The translations under genes and the position numbers were made by a program. The notes beneath the pieces were generated by a model that had not been told where the DNA came from, did no database searches, and saw only the letters and a list, made by a program, of their open reading frames with translations. A stretch of DNA of 21,022 bases from Streptomyces roseochromogenus subsp. oscitans DS 12.976 (lineage in GTDB: Bacteria; Actinomycetota; Actinomycetes; Streptomycetales; Streptomycetaceae): the NCBI RefSeq assembly GCF_000497445.1, contig NZ_CM002285.1, positions 7,400,740 through 7,421,761 of the forward strand, read 5' to 3'. This document shows positions 5,324-21,002 of this stretch, piece after piece. Every line of letters begins with the position of its first letter. Positions within the stretch are counted from its first letter, which is position 1.

Positions 5324-6412
<1,089 letters not shown>

Positions 6413-6443
6413 TCGTCGAAGATCGCAGCAGCAAGACCTTGAA

Positions 6444-6497
6444 GTGAGAGCAGGGCTCGGGCAGCGCAGCGTCGCGCTGTCCGAGCCCTGCTCTCAC
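6444..6497 (+). terminator. Very long hairpin between gap and pgk
   Basis: The outer arm GTGAGAGCAGGGCTCGG (6444-6460) pairs perfectly with 6481-6497. One G-T pair (6461/6480) joins it to a second perfect stem, CAGCGC (6462-6467) with GCGCTG (6474-6479), leaving a 6-base loop. The whole is a 24-bp stem. It starts 31 bases after the gap stop and most likely terminates or strongly attenuates transcription into pgk. Confidence 0.85.
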
Positions 6498-6557
6498 GTA
6501 CGGACCACGTCCTTTTACGATCAGGTGCACCACGAGCCCTCCTTTGGAGTCCACTCA

Positions 6558-7769
6558 ATGAAGACGATCGACGAACTTCTCGCCGACGGCGTGAGCGGCA
6601 AGCGGGTCTTCGTCCGCGCCGACCTCAACGTGCCGCTGGCCGACGGGACGATCACCGACGACGGCCGCATCCGTGCCGTCCTGCCCACCGTCAAGGCCCT
6701 CGCCGAGGCCGGCGCCAAGGTGGTCGTCGCCTCGCACCTGGGACGCCCCAAGGGCGCCCCGGACCCCGCCTTCTCGCTGCTGCCCGCCGCCGAGCGCCTC
6801 GGTGAACTCCTCGGCGCCCCGGTCGCCTTCGCCCAGGACACCGTCGGCCCGGCCGCCCACGACGCCGTGGACGGCCTCCAGCCCGGCCAGGTCGCGGTCA
6901 TCGAGAACCTGCGCTTCAACGCCGGCGAGACTTCGAAGGACGACACCGAGCGTGCCGAGTTCGCCGACCGGCTGGCCGCGCTCGCCGACGTCTACGTCGG
7001 TGACGGCTTCGGCGCCGTGCACCGCAAGCACGCCTCCGTCTACGACCTGCCGAAGAAGCTGCCGCACTACGCCGGCTACCTCATCGCCACCGAGGTCGGC
7101 GTGCTGAAGAAGCTCACCGAGGACGTCAAGCGCCCCTACGTCGTCGCGCTCGGCGGCGCCAAGGTCTCCGACAAGCTCGCCGTCATCGACGCGCTGCTGG
7201 GGAAGGCCGACCGCCTGCTCATCGGCGGCGGCATGGCCTACACCTTCCTCAAGGCCAAGGGCTACGAGGTCGGCATCTCCCTCCTGCAGGAGGACCAGAT
7301 CCCGGCCGTCACGGAGTACATGCAGCGCGCCGAGAAGCAGGGCGTCGAGCTGGTGCTCCCCGTCGACGTCCTGGTCTCCCGGGAGTTCCCGGACCTGAAG
7401 ACCAAGGCGCCGGCCGACTACACCGTGGTCGACGCGGACAAGATCCCCGCCGACCAGGAGGGCCTGGACATCGGCCCGAAGACCCGGGAGCTGTACGCCT
7501 CGAAGCTCACCGACGCCGCGACCGTCTTCTGGAACGGTCCCATGGGCGTCTTCGAGCACCCCGACTACGCGGGGGGCACCAAGGCGGTAGCCCAGGCCCT
7601 CCTCGACTCGGACGGCTTCACCGTCGTCGGCGGCGGTGACTCCGCCGCGGCCGTGCGTACGCTCGGCTTCGACGAGAATGCATTCGGCCACATCTCGACC
7701 GGTGGCGGCGCCTCCCTCGAACACCTCGAGGGCAAGACGCTCCCCGGCCTCGCCGCACTGGAGGACTGA
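6558..7769 (+). CDS. pgk: Phosphoglycerate kinase
   Basis: This 403-residue enzyme transfers the acyl phosphate of 1,3-bisphosphoglycerate to ADP in glycolysis. ATG at 6558 is chosen because the family N-terminus MKTIDELL starts here and GGAG at 6546-6549 lies 8 bases upstream; the frame stays open further upstream without homology. Visible motifs are FVRADLNVPL, ASHLGRPKG, VGDGFGAVHRKHAS, GGAKVSDKLAVIDALL, GGGMAYTFLKAKG, FWNGPMGVFE and the nucleotide-site GGGDSAAAV. A possible -10, TACGAT at 6516-6521, follows the gap-pgk hairpin, but its -35 would overlap the hairpin arm. It is followed after 6 bases by tpiA, so the two are co-transcribed. Confidence 0.97.
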   Translation: MKTIDELLADGVSGKRVFVRADLNVPLADGTITDDGRIRAVLPTVKALAEAGAKVVVASHLGRPKGAPDPAFSLLPAAERLGELLGAPVAFAQDTVGPAAHDAVDGLQPGQVAVIENLRFNAGETSKDDTERAEFADRLAALADVYVGDGFGAVHRKHASVYDLPKKLPHYAGYLIATEVGVLKKLTEDVKRPYVVALGGAKVSDKLAVIDALLGKADRLLIGGGMAYTFLKAKGYEVGISLLQEDQIPAVTEYMQRAEKQGVELVLPVDVLVSREFPDLKTKAPADYTVVDADKIPADQEGLDIGPKTRELYASKLTDAATVFWNGPMGVFEHPDYAGGTKAVAQALLDSDGFTVVGGGDSAAAVRTLGFDENAFGHISTGGGASLEHLEGKTLPGLAALED

Positions 7770-7775
7770 CCCCGC

Positions 7776-8552
7776 ATGACCACTCGTACGCCTCTGATGG
7801 CGGGCAACTGGAAGATGAACCTCAACCACCTAGAGGCCATCGCACACGTCCAGAAGCTCGCCTTCGCCCTGGCCGACAAGGACTACGAGGCCGTCGAGGT
7901 CGCCGTCCTGCCGCCCTTCACCGACCTGCGCTCCGTGCAGACCCTGGTCGACGGCGACAAGCTCAAGATCAAGTACGGCGCCCAGGACCTCTCGGCGCAC
8001 GACTCCGGCGCCTACACCGGTGAGATCTCCGGTCCGATGCTGGCCAAGCTCAAGTGCACCTACGTGGTCATCGGCCACTCCGAGCGCCGCCAGTACCACG
8101 AGGAGACCGACGAGCTGATCAACGCCAAGGTCAAGGCCGCCTACAAGCACGGTCTGACCCCGATCCTGTGCGTCGGCGAGGAGCTGGACGTCCGCGAGGC
8201 GGGCAACCACGTCACGCATACCCTCGCCCAGCTCGAGGGCGGTCTGAAGGACCTCCCGGCCGAGCAGGCCGAGACCGTCGTGATCGCCTACGAGCCCGTA
8301 TGGGCGATCGGCACCGGCAAGGTCTGCGGCTCCGAGGACGCCCAGGAGGTCTGCGCCGCCATCCGTGCCAAGCTCGCCGAGCTGTACTCGCAGGACGTGG
8401 CCGACAAGGTCCGCATCCAGTACGGCGGCTCCGTGAAGTCGGGCAACGTCGCCGAGATCATGGCCCAGGCCGACATCGACGGCGCCCTGGTCGGCGGTGC
8501 CTCGCTGGACGCCGACGAGTTCGTCAAGATCGTGCGTTTCCGCGATCAGTAG
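7776..8552 (+). CDS. tpiA: Triosephosphate isomerase
   Basis: The 258-residue TIM-barrel enzyme interconverts dihydroxyacetone phosphate and glyceraldehyde 3-phosphate. The catalytic set is complete: K13 in AGNWKMN, H101 in VIGHSERR, and E173 in [11 protein letters not shown]. The phosphate-binding segments YGGSVKSGN and LVGGASL are at the C-terminal end. ATG at 7776 follows the pgk stop by 6 bases; GGAGG at 7760-7764, inside the end of pgk, is the likely ribosome site, so translation of the pair is probably coupled. The next hairpin (8597-8626) lies 45 bases after its stop. Confidence 0.97.
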
Positions 8553-10876: not shown

Positions 10877-10928
10877 TCAATTAGGTTGGAACAGCTGGGA
10901 CAGGCACGAAAGAAGGCGGAAGTCGGAA

Positions 10929-12837: not shown

Positions 12838-15153
12838 TCAGGCCACCGCGCTGAGTGTGTCCGCGAGTCGTTTGCGGGCGGCTCGGCCCGCGGGCAGGGC
12901 GGACAGCAGCGCGGCACCGAGGACCGCGGTCAGCCCGACCGACAGGAGCAGCATCGGCGACGGCGACTGGGCGATGCCGGCGCCGATGCCGCTGGAGCCG
13001 CCCTGGGCGTCGATCAGCCGGCGGGCCAGCGGCAGACCCAGGGCCGTAGCGGCGAGGGCCGCGGCGAGGGCCGTACAGCTCGTCGCCGTGACGGTGATCG
13101 CGGTGATCTGCCGCGGGGACATGCCGATCGCCTTCAGTGCCAGCACGTCCCGTTCGCCCTCGCGGACACTGCCGCCGATGGCGGTGAGCAGCTCGACCAG
13201 CCCGATCAGGGCCAGTACGGCGATCAGCCCGGCGACGACAGCGCGCAGCGGGGACAGGCCGTCGGCCGGGTTCGTCACCGCGTGCACGTCGAGGTGGCCG
13301 CGGCCGGCTCGGCTCAGTGCCCCGGCCACCTGCCGCGGGTCGGCGCCGGGGCGCAGACGCAGTTCGTAGAAGGCGGTGGTCAGCTGGGGGTCGTTCGCGC
13401 GGAGGGTGTCCAGGGAGGTGGTCGCGACCCGGCCGGCGTTCTGCGGTTCGATGCTGCGGCCCACGATGTGCAGGATCTGCGGCCGGTCGCCCACCGTCAT
13501 GCGCACCCAGTCGCCGACCCGGGCGTGCAGCAGGTCCAGCAGGCCCTGGCCGGCCACCGCCTCGTCCGGTCCGCGTGCGGCGCGGCCCTCGGCGAGGGCA
13601 TAGGGGTAGGACTCGGCGCGGGTGCCGACGCCTCGCAGGGCGATGGTGCCGGTCTGGCCGGGGACCAGCGCGGCGACCTCGACCCCGGGATAGGCGGCGG
13701 CGACCCGGTGCTCACCGGTCAGCAGGGCCCGTACGCCGGACGCGTCCAGGGCGCCGTCGGAGCGGACCGTGAGGGCCGTGGGCAGGCCCATGCGTTCCGG
13801 GTCGCTGTGAAAGCGGTCGATCGTGGTCCAGGCGCTGAGCGCCACCACGATCAGCAGCAACGGCAGCGTCAGCCGGGCCACGGTGGCCAGCGATCGGCCG
13901 CGCCCCGCGCACGCCTTGTGGACACCGAGGACCAGCGGGGCCGGCAGCCGCAGTCCGAGCGCCCGCCGGGCCGGCCCGGTCAGCCGGCCGCCGGCTGGTG
14001 CGGCCGGACGCGGCACCGGAACCGGCGGCACCCGCCCGGCCCGCCAGGCCGCGAGCCCCGTGGTCAAGCCGATGAACAGCACCGTGCCCAAGGGCACCGC
14101 CAACAGCGCCACGGTGTGCCCGGGCAGCCCCTGCCACACGCCCACGGCGTCGCCGAGCCGGCCGGGGATCCGGCTGCCCAGGGCCTCGGTGAGCGCCGCG
14201 GCGGCCACCGAGCCGAGCAGCGCGTACGCCAGATGCTGGAGCAGAAAGATCCGGACGACCTGGCCCGGTGTGAAACCGATCGCCTTCAGCACCGAGAGAT
14301 CCCGCAGATGCCCCCGGATACGGGTGGCGATCGCCCCGTGCACGGCGAACCCCGCCGCGATCAGCGCGCCGAGGCCGAACAGGCCGAGCACCTGGCCCAG
14401 CAGCCGGTTGTCGCCCTGCGCCGCGGAGCGCGCCTGCTGCCAGGTGGAGACCTCGCCGACCGCGCCGGAGCCCAGCACCGTGACGGCACGCTGCACGGTG
14501 TAGTCCGTGTCGGCCGGGTCGTCCAGCCGCAGCCCGATGACTTGGCCGCCGGGAGCGCGTACGGCGGACGGCAGGGCCCATACCAGCCCCGGCTGCTCGC
14601 CCGGGCTGTAGTGGGGCTCGGCACTGTCCGCGATGCCCTCGACGGTCAGGGTGCGGGCGGTACCGGGCAGCGTGAGGGTGTCCCCGGGCTCGGCCAGCAG
14701 GGCCCGGGCCAGGCTGCTCTCCAGCACCACGCCGTCCGGTTCGGCCGTGTCCAGCCAGTGCCCGGCGGTGAGCAGCGGCCGGCCCACGGGGGGCAGGCGA
14801 GGGGTGCCGCGCAGCTCGACGGAGGCGCGGGTGCCGCGTACGGCGACGGTGGCGGACTCGGTGCGGTAGGGGCCGGCCACCGAGGCGACGCCGTCCAGCT
14901 CGGCCAGCCCGCGCGGGTCGGCGGACGGCACGGTGTGGATCCACACATGCGCGCCGCGGGCCTGGGTGAAGATCCGCTGCCAGGGGTTGGTGGCGTACCC
15001 GAACAGGGCGGTGGCCAGCAGCAGCGAGGCGACGATCCCGGCGGTGGCCAGCACGAGGAACAGCGCCTCACCACGATGCGTCCGCAGATCGGAGTGCGCC
15101 CACCGCAGGCTGCCCCGTACGCCGGATCCCATGCCCAGCGGACCCCTTGCCAT
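12838..15153 (-). CDS. FtsX-like ABC transporter permease
   Basis: The 771-residue membrane protein has the duplicated FtsX/MacB-type permease layout. After a cytoplasmic start there is one membrane segment (about residues 30-52), a large extracytoplasmic domain, a three-segment block (about 255-390) with the conserved coupling region LSVLKAIGFTPGQVVRIF, then a second anchoring segment (about 425-447), a second extracellular domain, and a final three-segment block with DVLALKAIGMSPRQITAI. The two KAIG-x-(T/S)-P copies show the internal duplication. Such permeases usually export peptides, lipids or hydrophobic drugs, or act in envelope sensing; the substrate is not evident. Its ATG overlaps the ATPase stop by one base (TGATG), so the two are translationally coupled. 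Confidence 0.9.
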   Translation of the reverse strand: MARGPLGMGSGVRGSLRWAHSDLRTHRGEALFLVLATAGIVASLLLATALFGYATNPWQRIFTQARGAHVWIHTVPSADPRGLAELDGVASVAGPYRTESATVAVRGTRASVELRGTPRLPPVGRPLLTAGHWLDTAEPDGVVLESSLARALLAEPGDTLTLPGTARTLTVEGIADSAEPHYSPGEQPGLVWALPSAVRAPGGQVIGLRLDDPADTDYTVQRAVTVLGSGAVGEVSTWQQARSAAQGDNRLLGQVLGLFGLGALIAAGFAVHGAIATRIRGHLRDLSVLKAIGFTPGQVVRIFLLQHLAYALLGSVAAAALTEALGSRIPGRLGDAVGVWQGLPGHTVALLAVPLGTVLFIGLTTGLAAWRAGRVPPVPVPRPAAPAGGRLTGPARRALGLRLPAPLVLGVHKACAGRGRSLATVARLTLPLLLIVVALSAWTTIDRFHSDPERMGLPTALTVRSDGALDASGVRALLTGEHRVAAAYPGVEVAALVPGQTGTIALRGVGTRAESYPYALAEGRAARGPDEAVAGQGLLDLLHARVGDWVRMTVGDRPQILHIVGRSIEPQNAGRVATTSLDTLRANDPQLTTAFYELRLRPGADPRQVAGALSRAGRGHLDVHAVTNPADGLSPLRAVVAGLIAVLALIGLVELLTAIGGSVREGERDVLALKAIGMSPRQITAITVTATSCTALAAALAATALGLPLARRLIDAQGGSSGIGAGIAQSPSPMLLLSVGLTAVLGAALLSALPAGRAARKRLADTLSAVA

Positions 15154-15971
15154 CAGTCCCTCAGCTCCAGCACGCCCGAGATCCCCGCCTTCCGGGACGC
15201 GGGCGCGCCGTCCAGCGGCGCGTCGTCGGCTATACGGCCGTCGAAGAAGCTGATCACGCGGTCGGCGGCGCTCGCCAGCCGGGCGTCATGCGTGACCAGC
15301 ACGATCGTCTGGCCGCGTCCGTGGAAGCGGGACAGCAGCCGCGTCACCTCGCGTGTGCCCTTGCTGTCCAGGCTCCCGGCGGGCTCGTCGGCCAGCAGCA
15401 GCGGGGGATGGTTGACCAGCGCCCGGGCGAGCGCGACCCGCTGCTGCTCGCCGCCGGACAGCTCGCCCGGCATGCTGCGCTCCTTGCCCGTGAGCCCCAG
15501 CTCGGCCAGCAGTTCCTCGCGCTCGGCACGGGCCTGCTTCGGCGGGACACCGGCGAGCAGGGCGGGCAGCTCGACGTTGTCGGCGACGGACAGGTTCGAC
15601 ACCAGGTTGAAGAACTGGAACACGATCCCGATGGCCCTGCGGCGCTCCACCGCCCAGCGTGCCTCGCTGAAGGAGTCCGTGCACCGCCCGTCGAGCCAGA
15701 TGCTGCCCTCGTCCGGGCGCTGCAGCCCGCCGAGGAGATGCAGCAGCGTGGACTTGCCGGCGCCCGACGGGCCGGTGATCGCCACGAACTCGCCGCGCGC
15801 CACGGAGAGATCGACTCCGCGCACGGCACGCGCGGGCGCGCCCTCGCCGTGGTGGGTCTTCACCAGTCCCTCGGCGCGCAGCACGGGAGTGCCCTCGGCC
15901 CGCACCGGAGTGCCCTCGGCCGGCACCTCAGCGCCCTCGGCCCGCGGAACCGGAGTACCGTCCTCGCTCAT
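15153..15971 (-). CDS. ABC transporter ATP-binding protein, MacB/LolD type
   Basis: The 272-residue ATPase powers the adjacent FtsX-like permease. Walker A GPSGAGKS is at residues 67-74 (K73), the Q-loop is in VFQFFNLV (about 117-124), the signature LSGGEQQR at 171-178, Walker B LLLADEP at 191-197 (E196), and the switch histidine at H228 in VTHD. The start is set at 15971 because its ATG overlaps the padR stop as ATGA and a GGAGGA ribosome site lies 8 bases upstream; an ATG 6 codons earlier lacks this support. Residues 5-35 are an unusual tandem repeat rich in (T)PV-RAEG, absent from typical family members. The gene is the middle member of padR-ATPase-permease. Confidence 0.93.
   Translation of the reverse strand: MSEDGTPVPRAEGAEVPAEGTPVRAEGTPVLRAEGLVKTHHGEGAPARAVRGVDLSVARGEFVAITGPSGAGKSTLLHLLGGLQRPDEGSIWLDGRCTDSFSEARWAVERRRAIGIVFQFFNLVSNLSVADNVELPALLAGVPPKQARAEREELLAELGLTGKERSMPGELSGGEQQRVALARALVNHPPLLLADEPAGSLDSKGTREVTRLLSRFHGRGQTIVLVTHDARLASAADRVISFFDGRIADDAPLDGAPASRKAGISGVLELRD
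15889..15951. repeat. 21-bp tandem repeat coding for a 7-residue repeat in the ABC ATPase
   Basis: The 12-base core GTGCCCTCGGCC occurs at 15889 and 15910, and as GCGCCCTCGGCC at 15931, with an exact 21-base period. A diverged fourth unit precedes it near 15868. On the minus strand this encodes successive AEG-centred heptads. The in-frame period keeps the ATPase open whatever the copy number. Confidence 0.8.
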
Positions 15972-16474
15972 TCCAGTTCCTCCTGGCACCGTTCCAGCCA
16001 GTCGAGGTCGGCCTGCAGATGCAGCATCGCGCCCTCGATGAGCAGATGGGCGATGCGGTTGTCCCGGTTCTCGGCCGCGGCCAGCTTCGACAGATTGCGC
16101 ATGGTGGTGAGGTACTGGCGCCGCTGCTTGTTGATGAGGGCGATCTGGTCGGCGAGACCGGTCTGCGGGGCCAGGGCGAGCTTCATGAAGAACTCGTCCC
16201 GCACCCGCGGCTCGTCCTCGGTCTCCTCGAACCAGGCGTGCAGCGCCTCCCGCCCGGCGTCGGTGAGGTGGTAGACCTTCTTGTTGGGTCGGCTGGACTG
16301 CTCGACGTCCTCGCCCTCGATCAGTCCCGACTTCTCGAGGCGGCCGAGGGTGACGTAGATCTGGCCGACGTTCGGCTGAGGGTACGCGGAGCCCAGCAGT
16401 TGCTCAAGGTCCTGCTTCAGCTCATAGCCGTGGGCCGGGCCGCGGGCGAGGAGTGCCAGGAGGGCAAGGCGCAC
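15968..16474 (-). CDS. PadR-family transcriptional regulator
   Basis: The 168-residue protein has the PadR winged helix at its N-terminus: LALLARGPAHGYELKQDLEQ (about residues 6-25), then NVGQIYVTLGRLEKSGLI (about 35-52), and the wing KVYHLTDAGREAL (about 66-78). The C-terminal part (about 90-165) is helical, as in the vinculin-like dimerisation domain. Family members are usually autorepressors whose release induces a neighbouring exporter. GTG at 16474 is the start, with AGGAGGA 8 bases upstream on the minus strand. It heads the operon, overlaps the ATPase start by 4 bases, and is divergent from the solute-binding-protein gene. The dyad at 16527-16541, 53 bases upstream, is a natural candidate operator; the ligand is unknown. 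Confidence 0.92.
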   Translation of the reverse strand: MRLALLALLARGPAHGYELKQDLEQLLGSAYPQPNVGQIYVTLGRLEKSGLIEGEDVEQSSRPNKKVYHLTDAGREALHAWFEETEDEPRVRDEFFMKLALAPQTGLADQIALINKQRRQYLTTMRNLSKLAAAENRDNRIAHLLIEGAMLHLQADLDWLERCQEELE

Positions 16475-16526: not shown

Positions 16527-16541
16527 ATACCTAACGGGTAT
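16527..16541. promoter_or_regulatory. Site A: candidate operator between padR and the solute-binding-protein gene
   Basis: ATACCTAACGGGTAT is a dyad of ATACC and GGTAT around 5 bases. It contains the 13-base motif TACCTAACNNGYA (16528-16540) shared with sites B and C. It sits roughly midway in the 129-base divergent spacer, so one bound protein could affect both genes. A further GTAT at 16518-16521 makes an overlapping GTAT-N5-ATAC dyad. Confidence 0.6.
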
Positions 16542-16603
16542 ACATGGCCTCTGACTCCCGGCGAGGATGCCGCAGTCGTGTGTACGTGTTCAGGGAGGAA
16601 CCT

Positions 16604-17902
16604 ATGCGGTGGATACGCGCCGCTGGTAGGGGGCCCCGGATACGCGCCGCCGGCCGGGCCCTTCTCGTCCTCGCCGTGCTCATGACCGGGTACGTCGCCT
16701 CCGGTGCGCGGGCGGGAGAAAGCGACGGCTCCGGCCGTGGCCCGCTCACCCTGGCCACCGCCGGCGATCTCACCGGCTATCTCGGCCCGCTGCTCCAGGG
16801 CTGGAACCGCACCCACCCCGGCGAGAAGGTCACCCTGGTCGAGCTGCCGGACTCCGCCGACGAGACCCATGCGCAGATGACCACCGATCTGCGCGGCGGC
16901 GACCGCGGCCGGTTCGACGTCCTCAACATCGACGTCAACTGGACCTCGGAGTTCGCGGCGGCCGGCTGGATACGGCCGCTCCCGAGCGAGCGATTCCCGC
17001 TCGGCACCTTCCTGCCGCCGGTCGTGAACACGGCCACCTATGAGGGACGGCTGTACGCGGTCCCGTACGTCACGAATGCCGGACTTCTCCTGTATCGCAG
17101 GGACATCCTCGCCAAGGAGGGCGTACCCCCGCCGCGCACCTGGGCCGAGCTGGAGCACGACGCGAAGACCATCGCGCCGAAGTACGGACTCGGCGGCTAC
17201 GCGGGCCAGTTCCTGCCCTACGAGGGGCTCACCGTGAACGCCGCCGAGGCCGTCTACTCGGCGGGCGGCTCGATCCTCGGCGACGAGGGCACCCGGGTCA
17301 CCGTCGACTCGGCGGCCGCCCGCGAGGGCATCGGCTTCCTCGCCCGCGGCATCCGCGAGGGCTGGATCCCGAAGGCGGCGCTGACGTACAAGGAAGAGGA
17401 GTCCAAGCGGGCCTTCCAGGACGGCAGGCTGCTCTTCCTGCGCAACTGGCCCTACGCCTATGCCGTCGCCTCCGCCAAGGGCTCCAAGGTCGCCGGGAAG
17501 ATCGGCGCCGTACCGCTGCCCGGACCCGACGGGCCGGGCACCAGTGTGCTCGGCGGCTCCAACCTCGCCGTCAACTCCCATGCCCGGCACCCCGATTCGG
17601 CCGCGCGCCTGATCGCCTACCTCACCAGCGCGCCCGTTCAGCGCCAGGTGCTCACCCGGGGCGCGCTGCCACCGGTACGCGCCGCGCTCTACGAAGACCC
17701 CGCGCTGGTACGCCGCTTCCCCTACCTTCCCACCCTGCGCACCGCCGTGCTCACCGCTGCCCCGCGCCCCAAGAGTGCGCACTACGACCAGGTCAGCCTG
17801 GTGGTGCAGGCGATCGTGCACGATGCGCTGACCGGGCACGAGACACCCGCGGCGGCGGTGCGCCGACTGGCCCGGGAGCTGGCGGCTGTCTCCCGCCGCT
17901 AG
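16604..17902 (+). CDS. Extracellular solute-binding protein of a sugar ABC transporter, no lipobox
   Basis: The 432-residue protein looks like a family 1 sugar-binding protein (trehalose/maltose type, LpqY/ThuE-like). Typical segments are PLTLATAGDLTGYLGPLLQG, FDVLNIDVNWTSEFAAAGWI with the following RPL, YAVPYVTNAGLLLYRRDIL, and the late NWPYAYAVA and GGSNLAVNSHARHP. ATG at 16604 is chosen by GGGAGG at 16593-16598 and because the N-terminus then has basic residues, a hydrophobic core (ALLVLAVLMTGYVA) and a possible signal-peptidase site after GARA. There is no cysteine in the signal region, so unlike most actinobacterial binding proteins it is not an obvious lipoprotein. No permease gene is adjacent; the next gene is the GH13 enzyme. 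It is divergent from padR and flanked by motif sites A and B. Family call is good; ligand unknown. Confidence 0.85.
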   Translation: MRWIRAAGRGPRIRAAGRALLVLAVLMTGYVASGARAGESDGSGRGPLTLATAGDLTGYLGPLLQGWNRTHPGEKVTLVELPDSADETHAQMTTDLRGGDRGRFDVLNIDVNWTSEFAAAGWIRPLPSERFPLGTFLPPVVNTATYEGRLYAVPYVTNAGLLLYRRDILAKEGVPPPRTWAELEHDAKTIAPKYGLGGYAGQFLPYEGLTVNAAEAVYSAGGSILGDEGTRVTVDSAAAREGIGFLARGIREGWIPKAALTYKEEESKRAFQDGRLLFLRNWPYAYAVASAKGSKVAGKIGAVPLPGPDGPGTSVLGGSNLAVNSHARHPDSAARLIAYLTSAPVQRQVLTRGALPPVRAALYEDPALVRRFPYLPTLRTAVLTAAPRPKSAHYDQVSLVVQAIVHDALTGHETPAAAVRRLARELAAVSRR

Positions 17903-17918
17903 TTACTTGTTAGGTAAC
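17902..17918. promoter_or_regulatory. Site B: candidate operator after the solute-binding-protein gene
   Basis: GTTAC and GTAAC form a dyad around TTGTTAG; the first base is the last base of the upstream stop codon. On the minus strand it reads TACCTAACAAGTA (17904-17916), matching the shared 13-base motif. It lies about 118 bases upstream of site C, in the visibly AT-richer spacer before the GH13 gene. Confidence 0.6.
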
Positions 17919-18000
17919 GCGTACGTCTCATCTGTTGTGAAAATGCCCCGGTAAGTCCGTATTTGGCACCCCAACTCACCAGTAGCTACTGTTCTTTTCA

Positions 18001-18031
18001 TTGACACCCTCGCGATACGCCTACCTAACAT
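18001..18031 (+). promoter_or_regulatory. Promoter of the GH13 gene giving a leaderless transcript
   Basis: TTGACA (18001-18006) is a perfect -35. TAACAT (18026-18031) fits TANNNT with a 19-base spacer, and the A of the ATG at 18038 is 7 bases after it, the usual transcription start distance. No ribosome-binding sequence precedes the ATG. A CCTAAC -10 with spacer 17 is the alternative; it would still leave almost no leader. Confidence 0.6.
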
Positions 18032-18034
18032 GCA
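18022..18034. promoter_or_regulatory. Site C: candidate operator over the GH13 -10 region
   Basis: TACCTAACATGCA matches the motif of sites A and B (TACCTAACNNGYA) and overlaps the -10 and the predicted transcription start of the GH13 gene. Occupancy here would be expected to repress. The right half is weaker (GCA instead of GTA). Confidence 0.6.
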
Positions 18035-18037
18035 TGC

Positions 18038-19648
<1,611 letters not shown>

Positions 19649-19673: not shown

Positions 19674-21002
19674 ATGATGATGCGACGCCGTACCACCCTG
19701 CTCACCGGCTGTACCGCCCTGACCCTCGCCCTCGCCGCCACCGCCTGCGGCGGCGGACCCGTCTCGGCCGGCGGCGGTGACAAGTCGCTCAGCGGCCAGA
19801 CCGTCACCGTGGCCGGCGTCTGGTCCGGCAGCGAGCAGAAGAACTTCCAGAAGGTGCTGGACGCCTTCACCGCGAAGACCGGCGCCAAGACCCAGTTCGT
19901 CTCCACCGGCGACAACGTCTCCACCGTCGTCGGCAGCAAGATCGAGGGCGGCAACGCACCCGACGTCGTGATGGTCCCGCAGGTCGGCGTCCTCGACCAG
20001 TTCGCGAAGAAGGGCTGGCTCAAGCCGCTCTCGCCGACCGCCCAGCAGACGATCACCGCCGACTACGCGCCCGTGTGGAAGAAGTACGGCAGCGTCGACG
20101 GCACCCTGTACGGCCTGTACTTCAAGGCCGCCCACAAGTCGACCGTCTGGTACAGCCCCAACGCCCTCACCCAGGCCGGGGTCAAGCCCCCGAAGACGTA
20201 CGACGAGATGCTGAAGGCCGGGCACACCGTCTCCGACTCCGGGCTCGCCGCCTTCGCCGTCGCCGGTGAGGACGGCTGGACCCTGACCGACTGGTTCGAG
20301 AACATCTACCTCTCCCAGGCCGGACCCGAGAAGTACGACGCCCTCGCCACCCACAAGCTGAAGTGGACCGACCCGAGCGTGGTCACGGCGCTCACCACCC
20401 TCGGCAAGCTGTTCAAGGACAAGCAGCTCATCGCGGGCGGCCAGAAGGAGGCCCTGAACACCGACTTCCCGGGCTCGGTGGAGAAGGTGTTCGGGCCCAA
20501 GCCCGAGGCCGGCATGGTCTACGAGGGCGACTTCGTGGCCGGGGTCGCGCACGACCAGTTCGGGAAGACCATCGGCAAGGACGCGAACTTCTTCCCGTTC
20601 CCGGCGGTCGACGGCGGCACGGCACCCGTGGTCAGCGGCGGTGACGCGGCGGTCGTCCTCAAGGACGGCAAGAACGCCGGGGCCGGCATGAAGCTCCTGG
20701 AGTACCTGGCCACCCCCGAGGCCGCGGCCGTCTGGGCCAAGGCGGGCGGCTTCCTGTCCCCGAACAAGAAGCTCGACCTCGCCTCCTACGCCGACGACGT
20801 CACCCGCGCCACCGCCAAGTCCCTGGTCGGCGCCGGGGATTCGGTCCGCTTCGACATGTCCGACCAGGCCCCGGCGGCCTTCGGCGGCACCAAGGGGGCG
20901 GGGGAGTGGAAGCTCCTCCAGGACTTCCTGCGCGACCCGTCGGACCCGAAGGGCACCGCGGCACAGCTGGAGTCCGCCGCGGCCAAGGCCTACCAGGGCT
21001 GA
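19674..21002 (+). CDS. Alpha-glucoside ABC transporter lipoprotein, AglE-like
   Basis: The 442-residue protein is a secreted lipoprotein that captures oligosaccharide for an ABC importer. The N-terminus has three arginines, a hydrophobic core (LTLALAATA) and a likely lipidated C25 followed by glycines, although the residue at -3 of the lipobox is alanine rather than leucine. TVTVAGVWSGSEQKNFQKVL, IEGGNAPDVVMVPQVGVLDQ, GLYFKAAHKSTVWYSP and YEGDFVAGVA are typical of the AglE alpha-glucoside-binding group. Three consecutive ATG codons (19674, 19677, 19680) are possible starts; the first is used because AAGGGA (19663-19668) lies 5 bases upstream, with 19677 nearly as likely. It follows the GH13 gene by 25 bases and precedes a new start 6 bases after its stop, so it is inside an operon. 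Confidence 0.9.
   Translation: MMMRRRTTLLTGCTALTLALAATACGGGPVSAGGGDKSLSGQTVTVAGVWSGSEQKNFQKVLDAFTAKTGAKTQFVSTGDNVSTVVGSKIEGGNAPDVVMVPQVGVLDQFAKKGWLKPLSPTAQQTITADYAPVWKKYGSVDGTLYGLYFKAAHKSTVWYSPNALTQAGVKPPKTYDEMLKAGHTVSDSGLAAFAVAGEDGWTLTDWFENIYLSQAGPEKYDALATHKLKWTDPSVVTALTTLGKLFKDKQLIAGGQKEALNTDFPGSVEKVFGPKPEAGMVYEGDFVAGVAHDQFGKTIGKDANFFPFPAVDGGTAPVVSGGDAAVVLKDGKNAGAGMKLLEYLATPEAAAVWAKAGGFLSPNKKLDLASYADDVTRATAKSLVGAGDSVRFDMSDQAPAAFGGTKGAGEWKLLQDFLRDPSDPKGTAAQLESAAAKAYQG

Follow-up and report, generated by a model that had tools for sequence, protein, structure and literature searches.

Conserved operator-like sites linked to a PadR gene at a sugar uptake and GH13 operon of Streptomyces roseochromogenus

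PadR regulators and the organization of the locus

In the excerpts of the PadR literature compared here, the family is linked to phenolic-acid, drug and transporter genes. VanR of Corynebacterium glutamicum is a PadR-like repressor of the neighbouring catabolic and uptake operon vanABK; its operator is located downstream of the -10 region and its effector is vanillate (PMC8358305). LmrR regulates an ABC/drug transporter gene as well as its own expression (PMC4534193) and responds to drugs (PMC3506622). LadR is likewise encoded beside a transporter gene, and in this case autoregulation is merely thought possible (PMC6624303). The operators reported for several PadR members are inverted repeats of ATGT/ACAT whose spacer is approximately 8-10 (PMC3506622). 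Among the listed matches from the PadR literature on sugars, operators and transporters, none described an actinobacterial sugar or GH13 operon regulated by a PadR protein. The nearest case is a PadR-type gene of Zobellia that is induced by polysaccharides and that its authors, in the available part of their report, tie to phenylacetate genes (PMC5613140). A further match, PMC10100716, was rejected because the name match was to the plasmid pAdrA. Outside the family, lac loops form between two operators of one promoter, and the effect of operator spacing follows the helical period; fits to two in vivo data sets put the repeat at 11.08 and 11.60 bp (PMC1762422).

The DNA analysed here, referred to below as the window, is a 21,022-nucleotide stretch of S. 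roseochromogenus subsp. oscitans DS 12.976 (positions 7,400,740-7,421,761) within a 9.78-Mb genome (9,782,257 bases) of two contigs. The minus strand holds a compact cluster of three genes, namely ftsX, a gene for an ABC transporter ATPase, and padR. The plus strand carries sbp1, gh13 and sbp2 in that order, followed past the window end by two BPD_transp_1 permease genes (Table 1). The open frame of the ATPase gene overlaps padR, and its start is uncertain. One flank of the locus consists of central carbon frames with GAPDH, PGK and TIM domains (window 5405-8552), and the other encodes 6-phosphogluconolactonase-type, OpcA, G6PD and transaldolase domains (L019 14553-18952). A LacI-type gene at the operon end was considered and rejected: none is present among the frames tested, and convergent pentose-phosphate genes come next.

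Table 1. Genes, candidate regulator sites and predicted promoter elements of the window
Feature	Position	Strand	Description
FtsX/MacB-type permease (ftsX)	12838..15153	-	PF02687, PF12704
ABC transporter ATPase	15153..15989	-	best NCBIfam matches LolD and FtsE, both below cut-offs
padR	15968..16474	-	168 aa; PadR PF03551 and C-terminal PF10400 (profile search)
Site A	16527..16541	.	ATACCTAACGGGTAT; between divergent padR and sbp1
sbp1	16604..17902	+	sugar-type extracellular solute-binding protein; PF01547
Site B	17902..17918	.	GTTAC-N7-GTAAC; at sbp1 stop codon; candidate upstream site of gh13 promoter
-35 element of gh13 promoter	18001..18006	+	TTGACA; 15 bases before C; TTGACA in 80/81 loci, TTGACT in one
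Site C	18022..18039	+	TACCTAACATGCATGCAT; over -10 element and predicted start of gh13 operon
-10 element of gh13 promoter	18026..18031	+	TAACAT; 19-bp spacer; predicted from sequence
gh13	18038..19648	+	alpha-amylase-family glycoside hydrolase; PF00128; leads sugar operon
sbp2	19674..21002	+	second solute-binding protein; PF01547

The padR product has the winged-helix domain PF03551 at residues 5-79 (76.4 bits against a cut-off of 27) and so can be classified as a PadR-family protein. PF10400 extends over residues 91-168 of 168, which places it in subfamily 1, whose members have approximately 180 aa and end in a large helical domain, some 80-90 residues long (PMC3506622). Its recognition-helix region reads N-V-GQIYVTLGRLEKSGL. 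The pattern N-x-G[QH][IV]YV[TVA]L is common to all 44 aligned PadR proteins (GQ in 41 of them) and differs from the subfamily 2 motif EGT(L/I)YPxLxRLE (PMC3506622). The operators of the LmrR/LadR type have ATGT/ACAT arms (PMC3506622) and, in the sources available, no associated sugar operon, whereas the arms here are TACCT/AGGTA. By eye, the conserved sites have the form [AT]TACCTAACA-N-GTA[AT]; ATGT/ACAT arms are absent, and that operator type is not taken as defining the PadR family.

Conservation of the sites and their tie to padR

The initial annotation reported three exact copies of the 13-mer TACCTAACNNGYA, and these are indeed present at 16528-16540 (plus strand), 17904-17916 (minus strand) and 18022-18034 (plus strand). 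With up to two mismatches there are seven matches in the window, compared with a mean of 1.58 and a maximum of 5 in dinucleotide shuffles. As was also stated, the octamer TACCTAAC has no further exact copy in the window, where 0.13 copies are expected from independent bases at 70.4% GC, close to the earlier figure of 0.1. The suggested scan of the whole genome yielded four copies of the 13-mer, three of which are in the window (reversed control: 0), and 14 copies of the octamer, three of which are inside a single 1.5-kb stretch at this locus (reversed control: 23). Genome-wide, the octamer is rarer than composition predicts (about 61 copies expected under independent bases at the GC content of the window).

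The dyads proposed for A and B are real, A having the arms ATACC-N5-GGTAT and B those given in Table 1. Site C is only a half match on the dyad frame and is embedded in TACCTAACATGCATGCATGTTGA. The VanR operator contains TTAGGTA, like the sites at this locus. A reading of C as a 26-bp palindrome was rejected: C is near-palindromic in the window, but the right arm differs in species with leadered gh13, so the palindrome is not the conserved feature. The fourth half-site suggested before pgi found no support. TTAGGT at 10881-10886 is a hexamer only, and the 11 aligned records covering these positions (the window's own region included) have TTAGGT in six cases and CTAGGT in five.

Conservation was assessed in 81 loci, namely the window and the best 80 of 182 sbp1 relatives in the genome collection, all of them from Streptomyces. 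As these loci were chosen via sbp1, they inform on linkage rather than on the frequency of the gene group. The padR, ATPase, sbp1 and gh13 genes are matched in 80/80 loci; ftsX was not found in L066, nor sbp2 in L037, L060 and L070, which are loci ending at a contig end. In the alignment of orthologous promoters that had been proposed as a check, sites A, B and C each have at most two mismatches to their consensus in every locus, in species that are related, so that the locus counts are not independent. The site A consensus is ATACCTAACAGGTAT, a perfect dyad ATACCT-N3-AGGTAT, and the 15-mer is within one mismatch of it in 80/81 loci (window included). Site B has TACYTAAC on the minus strand in 81/81 loci (minus-strand consensus GTTACCTAACAAGTAAC). 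Site C has TAC[ACT]TAAC in 81/81 loci, with a consensus that includes the promoter, TTGACA-N15-TAC[CTA]TAACATGCATGCAT, and its conservation is partly that of the -10 element and the start codon. The exact octamer is kept in A in 80/81 loci, in B in 51/81 and in C in 50/81, and all three are exact together in just 29/81.

Six Streptomyces loci at a greater distance (L226-L231) include exceptions: L228 has lost site A (7 mismatches), L231 has a weak form of it (3 mismatches), and site B is unrecognisable in L226 and L227 (5 and 6 mismatches). The L231 locus (G030 C19), with its weakened site A, is a second padR-ABC-sbp1 group that has no gh13 or sbp2 in the 12.5-kb stretch examined.

The 15-mer WTACCTAACARGTAW is present in 47 of 199 Streptomyces genomes (reversed control: 0). 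Paired copies lie approximately 1.35 kb apart, matching the A-B distance in the window. A global regulon was ruled out by the maximum of two copies per genome over the 199 genomes. Orthologs of padR (at least 85% identity) and of gh13 (at least 83%) occupy the same 18 of 37 Streptomyces genomes (own genome and 36 others). One of these 18 genomes (G011) carries elsewhere a second gh13 gene with 74-76% identity (L274); it has neither B nor C before it, and the 4 kb around this paralog contain no padR and no sbp1.

Among 394 genomes searched within the class, 14, all from a single other family, have a PadR ortholog with 69-72% identity. In all 14 loci, padR and sbp1 are divergent and sbp2 comes after sbp1; permease genes come next in the two loci examined. 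The 14 stretches of 12.5 kb contain no gh13 ortholog; a far-side gene in 13/14 loci has 31-33% identity to gh13. Because sbp2 follows sbp1 in these loci, sbp1 belongs with the sugar transporter, and its earlier description as an orphan does not hold. The padR/sbp1 gap contains TACCTAACNNGTA in 14/14 cases, adjoining a TTGAC-N19-TAACAT promoter-like stretch and a related second element, TGCATAACATGMATGCA. Of 16 matches to the 13-mer in the 14 genomes, 14 are in this gap. The reversed control gives 10 matches, so single matches elsewhere are background. In these loci (L212-L225), TGCATAACATGMATGCA lies beside TACCTAACACGTA and over TTGAC-N19-TAACAT, and is a possible additional PadR site at a distance of about two turns.

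PadR relatives with 40-46% identity adjoin ABC genes, and sugar genes are absent. A matrix was derived solely from the 13-mers of sites A, B and C (13 distinct sequences). Its best hit in the whole locus lies at most 150 bp before padR in 16/20 loci of these relatives, and elsewhere in the other 4/20. Column-shuffled matrices place their top hit in the padR promoter in 2.3/20 loci on average, and 4 of 1000 reach 16. The motif also precedes PadR relatives without adjoining sugar genes, which the initial annotation had not foreseen. Patterns run directly on these distant promoters were picked after viewing them and are not counted as evidence. The same promoters (L232-L251) have TAACCGTTA-type repeats, often two, which are likely an operator family of their own.

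The gh13 promoter and the spacing of sites B and C

The RNA start of gh13 is predicted at 18038, the A of the ATG, and the transcript would therefore be of the leaderless type. About a fifth of the genes of Streptomyces lividans are leaderless, and the promoter elements given are TANNNT and TGAC (PMC6742748). An ATG in frame with gh13 is present in 33/81 loci and is absent, out of frame or interrupted in 48/81. The non-leaderless loci inspected are longer by approximately 30-80 bases; most of them show a CAGAGACAGG-like stretch and start with TTG or GTG. As the promoter is kept while use of the ATG varies, C lies on the -10 element and start point with or without a leader. Gh13 thus seems to have moved between two translation-start modes while the promoter stayed. 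At site C, ATGCATGCATG gives a start codon in all three frames (window 18022-18060, loci L020-L099). At site A, no good -35/-10 pair was found for the start points.

Site B lies 118 bp upstream of C in the window. Between species, the B-C distance is 74, 95-97, 105-107, 116-118, 127-128 or 138 bp, values that differ by approximately whole helical turns. The centre distance in 106 loci with both sites is 118 in 73 and 116 or 117 in 22; the other 11 have 74 (3), 105-107 (5), 127-128 (2) or 138 (1). No B-like 15-mer with up to three mismatches occurs in 3000 shuffled gaps. A pattern of B, TTGACA and C with a free gap gave 82 matches in 224 Streptomyces genomes, with centre distances of 74 (1), 95-97 (4), 105-107 (13), 116-118 (63) and 128 (1). 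Only 11 of the 93 spacing values scanned are occupied, in five classes that were drawn after seeing the data, and this comparative evidence agrees with whole-turn spacing of the lac type. The best period is 10.8 bp for the class centres and 11.15 for all matches, compared with 11.08 and 11.60 bp for lac (PMC1762422). Random class centres equalled this fit in 0.17% of trials, in which the period was allowed to vary from 9.5 to 12. A second pattern, run on 295 genomes, agreed with this, giving spans of 115-117 in 79/83 matches and of 73, 104, 105 and 127 in the rest; the genome samples behind these counts overlap and the species are related.

On a quick tree of the sbp1 and gh13 proteins with 102 different rows (identical rows and loci without a recognisable B excluded), there are eight class changes, and six changes of the main class are forced by well-supported branches. 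An earlier tree, in which two loci without a recognisable B were counted as non-main rows, gave seven forced changes. The odds placed on the readings below are unchanged by this, because any number of separate changes from six to eight leads to the same conclusion.

The whole-turn spacing is strong, although not final, evidence of helical phasing. By this comparison B and C are part of one promoter and helically phased, a feature absent from the initial annotation. Lac-type loops resemble this arrangement in having two operators at one promoter and a spacing effect with the helical period. As such loops favour whole-turn spacing, the B-C pair can be read as a loop, and its spacing suggests bridging by PadR. 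The lac case differs in that the protein belongs to another family and the data are of repression, whereas here the spacing is evolutionary and bridging by PadR is a proposal.

Proposed model and alternatives

On the comparative evidence, the best-supported model is the one suggested at the outset, in which a single local dimeric regulator, likeliest the neighbouring PadR, acts on both the padR-ABC-ftsX operon and the sugar operon; its extension to pgi is dropped. Sites A, B and C are probably sites of the local PadR, with A serving in repression of padR-ABC-ftsX and sbp1, a phased B-C loop blocking gh13 and an effector bringing release. The steps would be as follows. Bound as a dimer at A, in the DNA that separates the divergent start regions, PadR would repress its own operon (autoregulation) and also sbp1. 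It would occupy the gh13 promoter at two places, strongly at the upstream site B and less strongly at C, which covers the -10 element and the start point. PadR on both sites, 118 bp apart on the same helix face, would bridge a small loop and exclude polymerase, which requires the meeting of two bound dimers. Repression at C, aided by B, would cover gh13, sbp2 and the permease genes. An effector would free PadR, and the exporter, binding protein, GH13 enzyme and transporter would be turned on together; this effector might be a sugar that the operon imports or a compound that the ABC exporter carries.

PadR autoregulation combined with a local target operon is of a known kind, and the whole-turn phasing of B and C appears to be the new element. 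VanR is similar in repressing a neighbouring catabolic and uptake operon, but its targets are vanillate genes rather than sugar genes, and the part of the report consulted describes no phased upstream second site (PMC8358305). With vanillate as the effector of VanR and drugs as those of LmrR, the PadR cases compared offer no precedent for a sugar effector. It is conceivable, if still a tentative proposition, that PadR became the dedicated switch of an actinobacterial sugar-uptake/glucosidase operon by means of a phased repression loop, sensing a sugar or a substrate of the FtsX-type exporter. In that case the export genes and the uptake genes would share one inducer.

The main rival is that upstream-bound PadR acts on polymerase: PadR at the phased site B would activate, or hinder activation, by polymerase contact, with C merely a site-like promoter element and no repression loop. 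This is unlikely, although C is a half match over a -10 element, an upstream-bound activator would also be phased, and the best PDB sequence match of the window PadR is the gene activator AphA. The presence of TAC[ACT]TAAC before and within the -10 element in all 81 loci exceeds the needs of a -10, and the centre of B is approximately 128 bp before the predicted start, from where activation would itself need a loop.

Binding of the sites by another regulator (LacI, GntR, ROK or a global factor), with PadR as a bystander, is less probable again. Sugar operons are often under LacI, GntR or ROK regulators, which is the general ground for this explanation. However, no such gene is present among the tested window frames and six tested downstream frames, and WhiA (933-1922) is the sole other regulator among the tested frames. 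The near absence of the sites elsewhere in the genome argues against a global factor, and the motif is found with padR in another family and beside distant PadR relatives, where no gh13 ortholog accompanies it.

A likeness of the copies by chance, or only as AT-rich promoter DNA, is hardly credible and already contradicted: C does overlap a -10 element, AT-rich matrices do score promoter regions above coding DNA and 4 of 1000 column-shuffled matrices equal the real one, but the remaining shuffles fall below it, three of the four genome copies lie within 1.5 kb, the sites are conserved in 80 further loci and the reversed-pattern control is 0 over 199 genomes.

The preferred reading thus remains that of local PadR sites; by sequence comparison they form a real, conserved, PadR-linked set, for which the phased-loop architecture is proposed. 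From this reading follow a predicted operator and a predicted small regulon for a PadR subfamily that occurs in several actinobacterial families, and it would link an uncharacterised FtsX-type exporter to sugar uptake. The B-C distances form a natural series of spacings: evolution kept changes by whole turns, and part-turn changes were not observed.

A separate observation concerns sbp1. Although its product is a solute-binding protein, a lipobox (by the author's pattern) is lacking in 80/81 Streptomyces loci (window 16604-16720). In the other family, sbp1 seems to encode a LAGC-type lipobox, as judged by eye from a few aligned loci.
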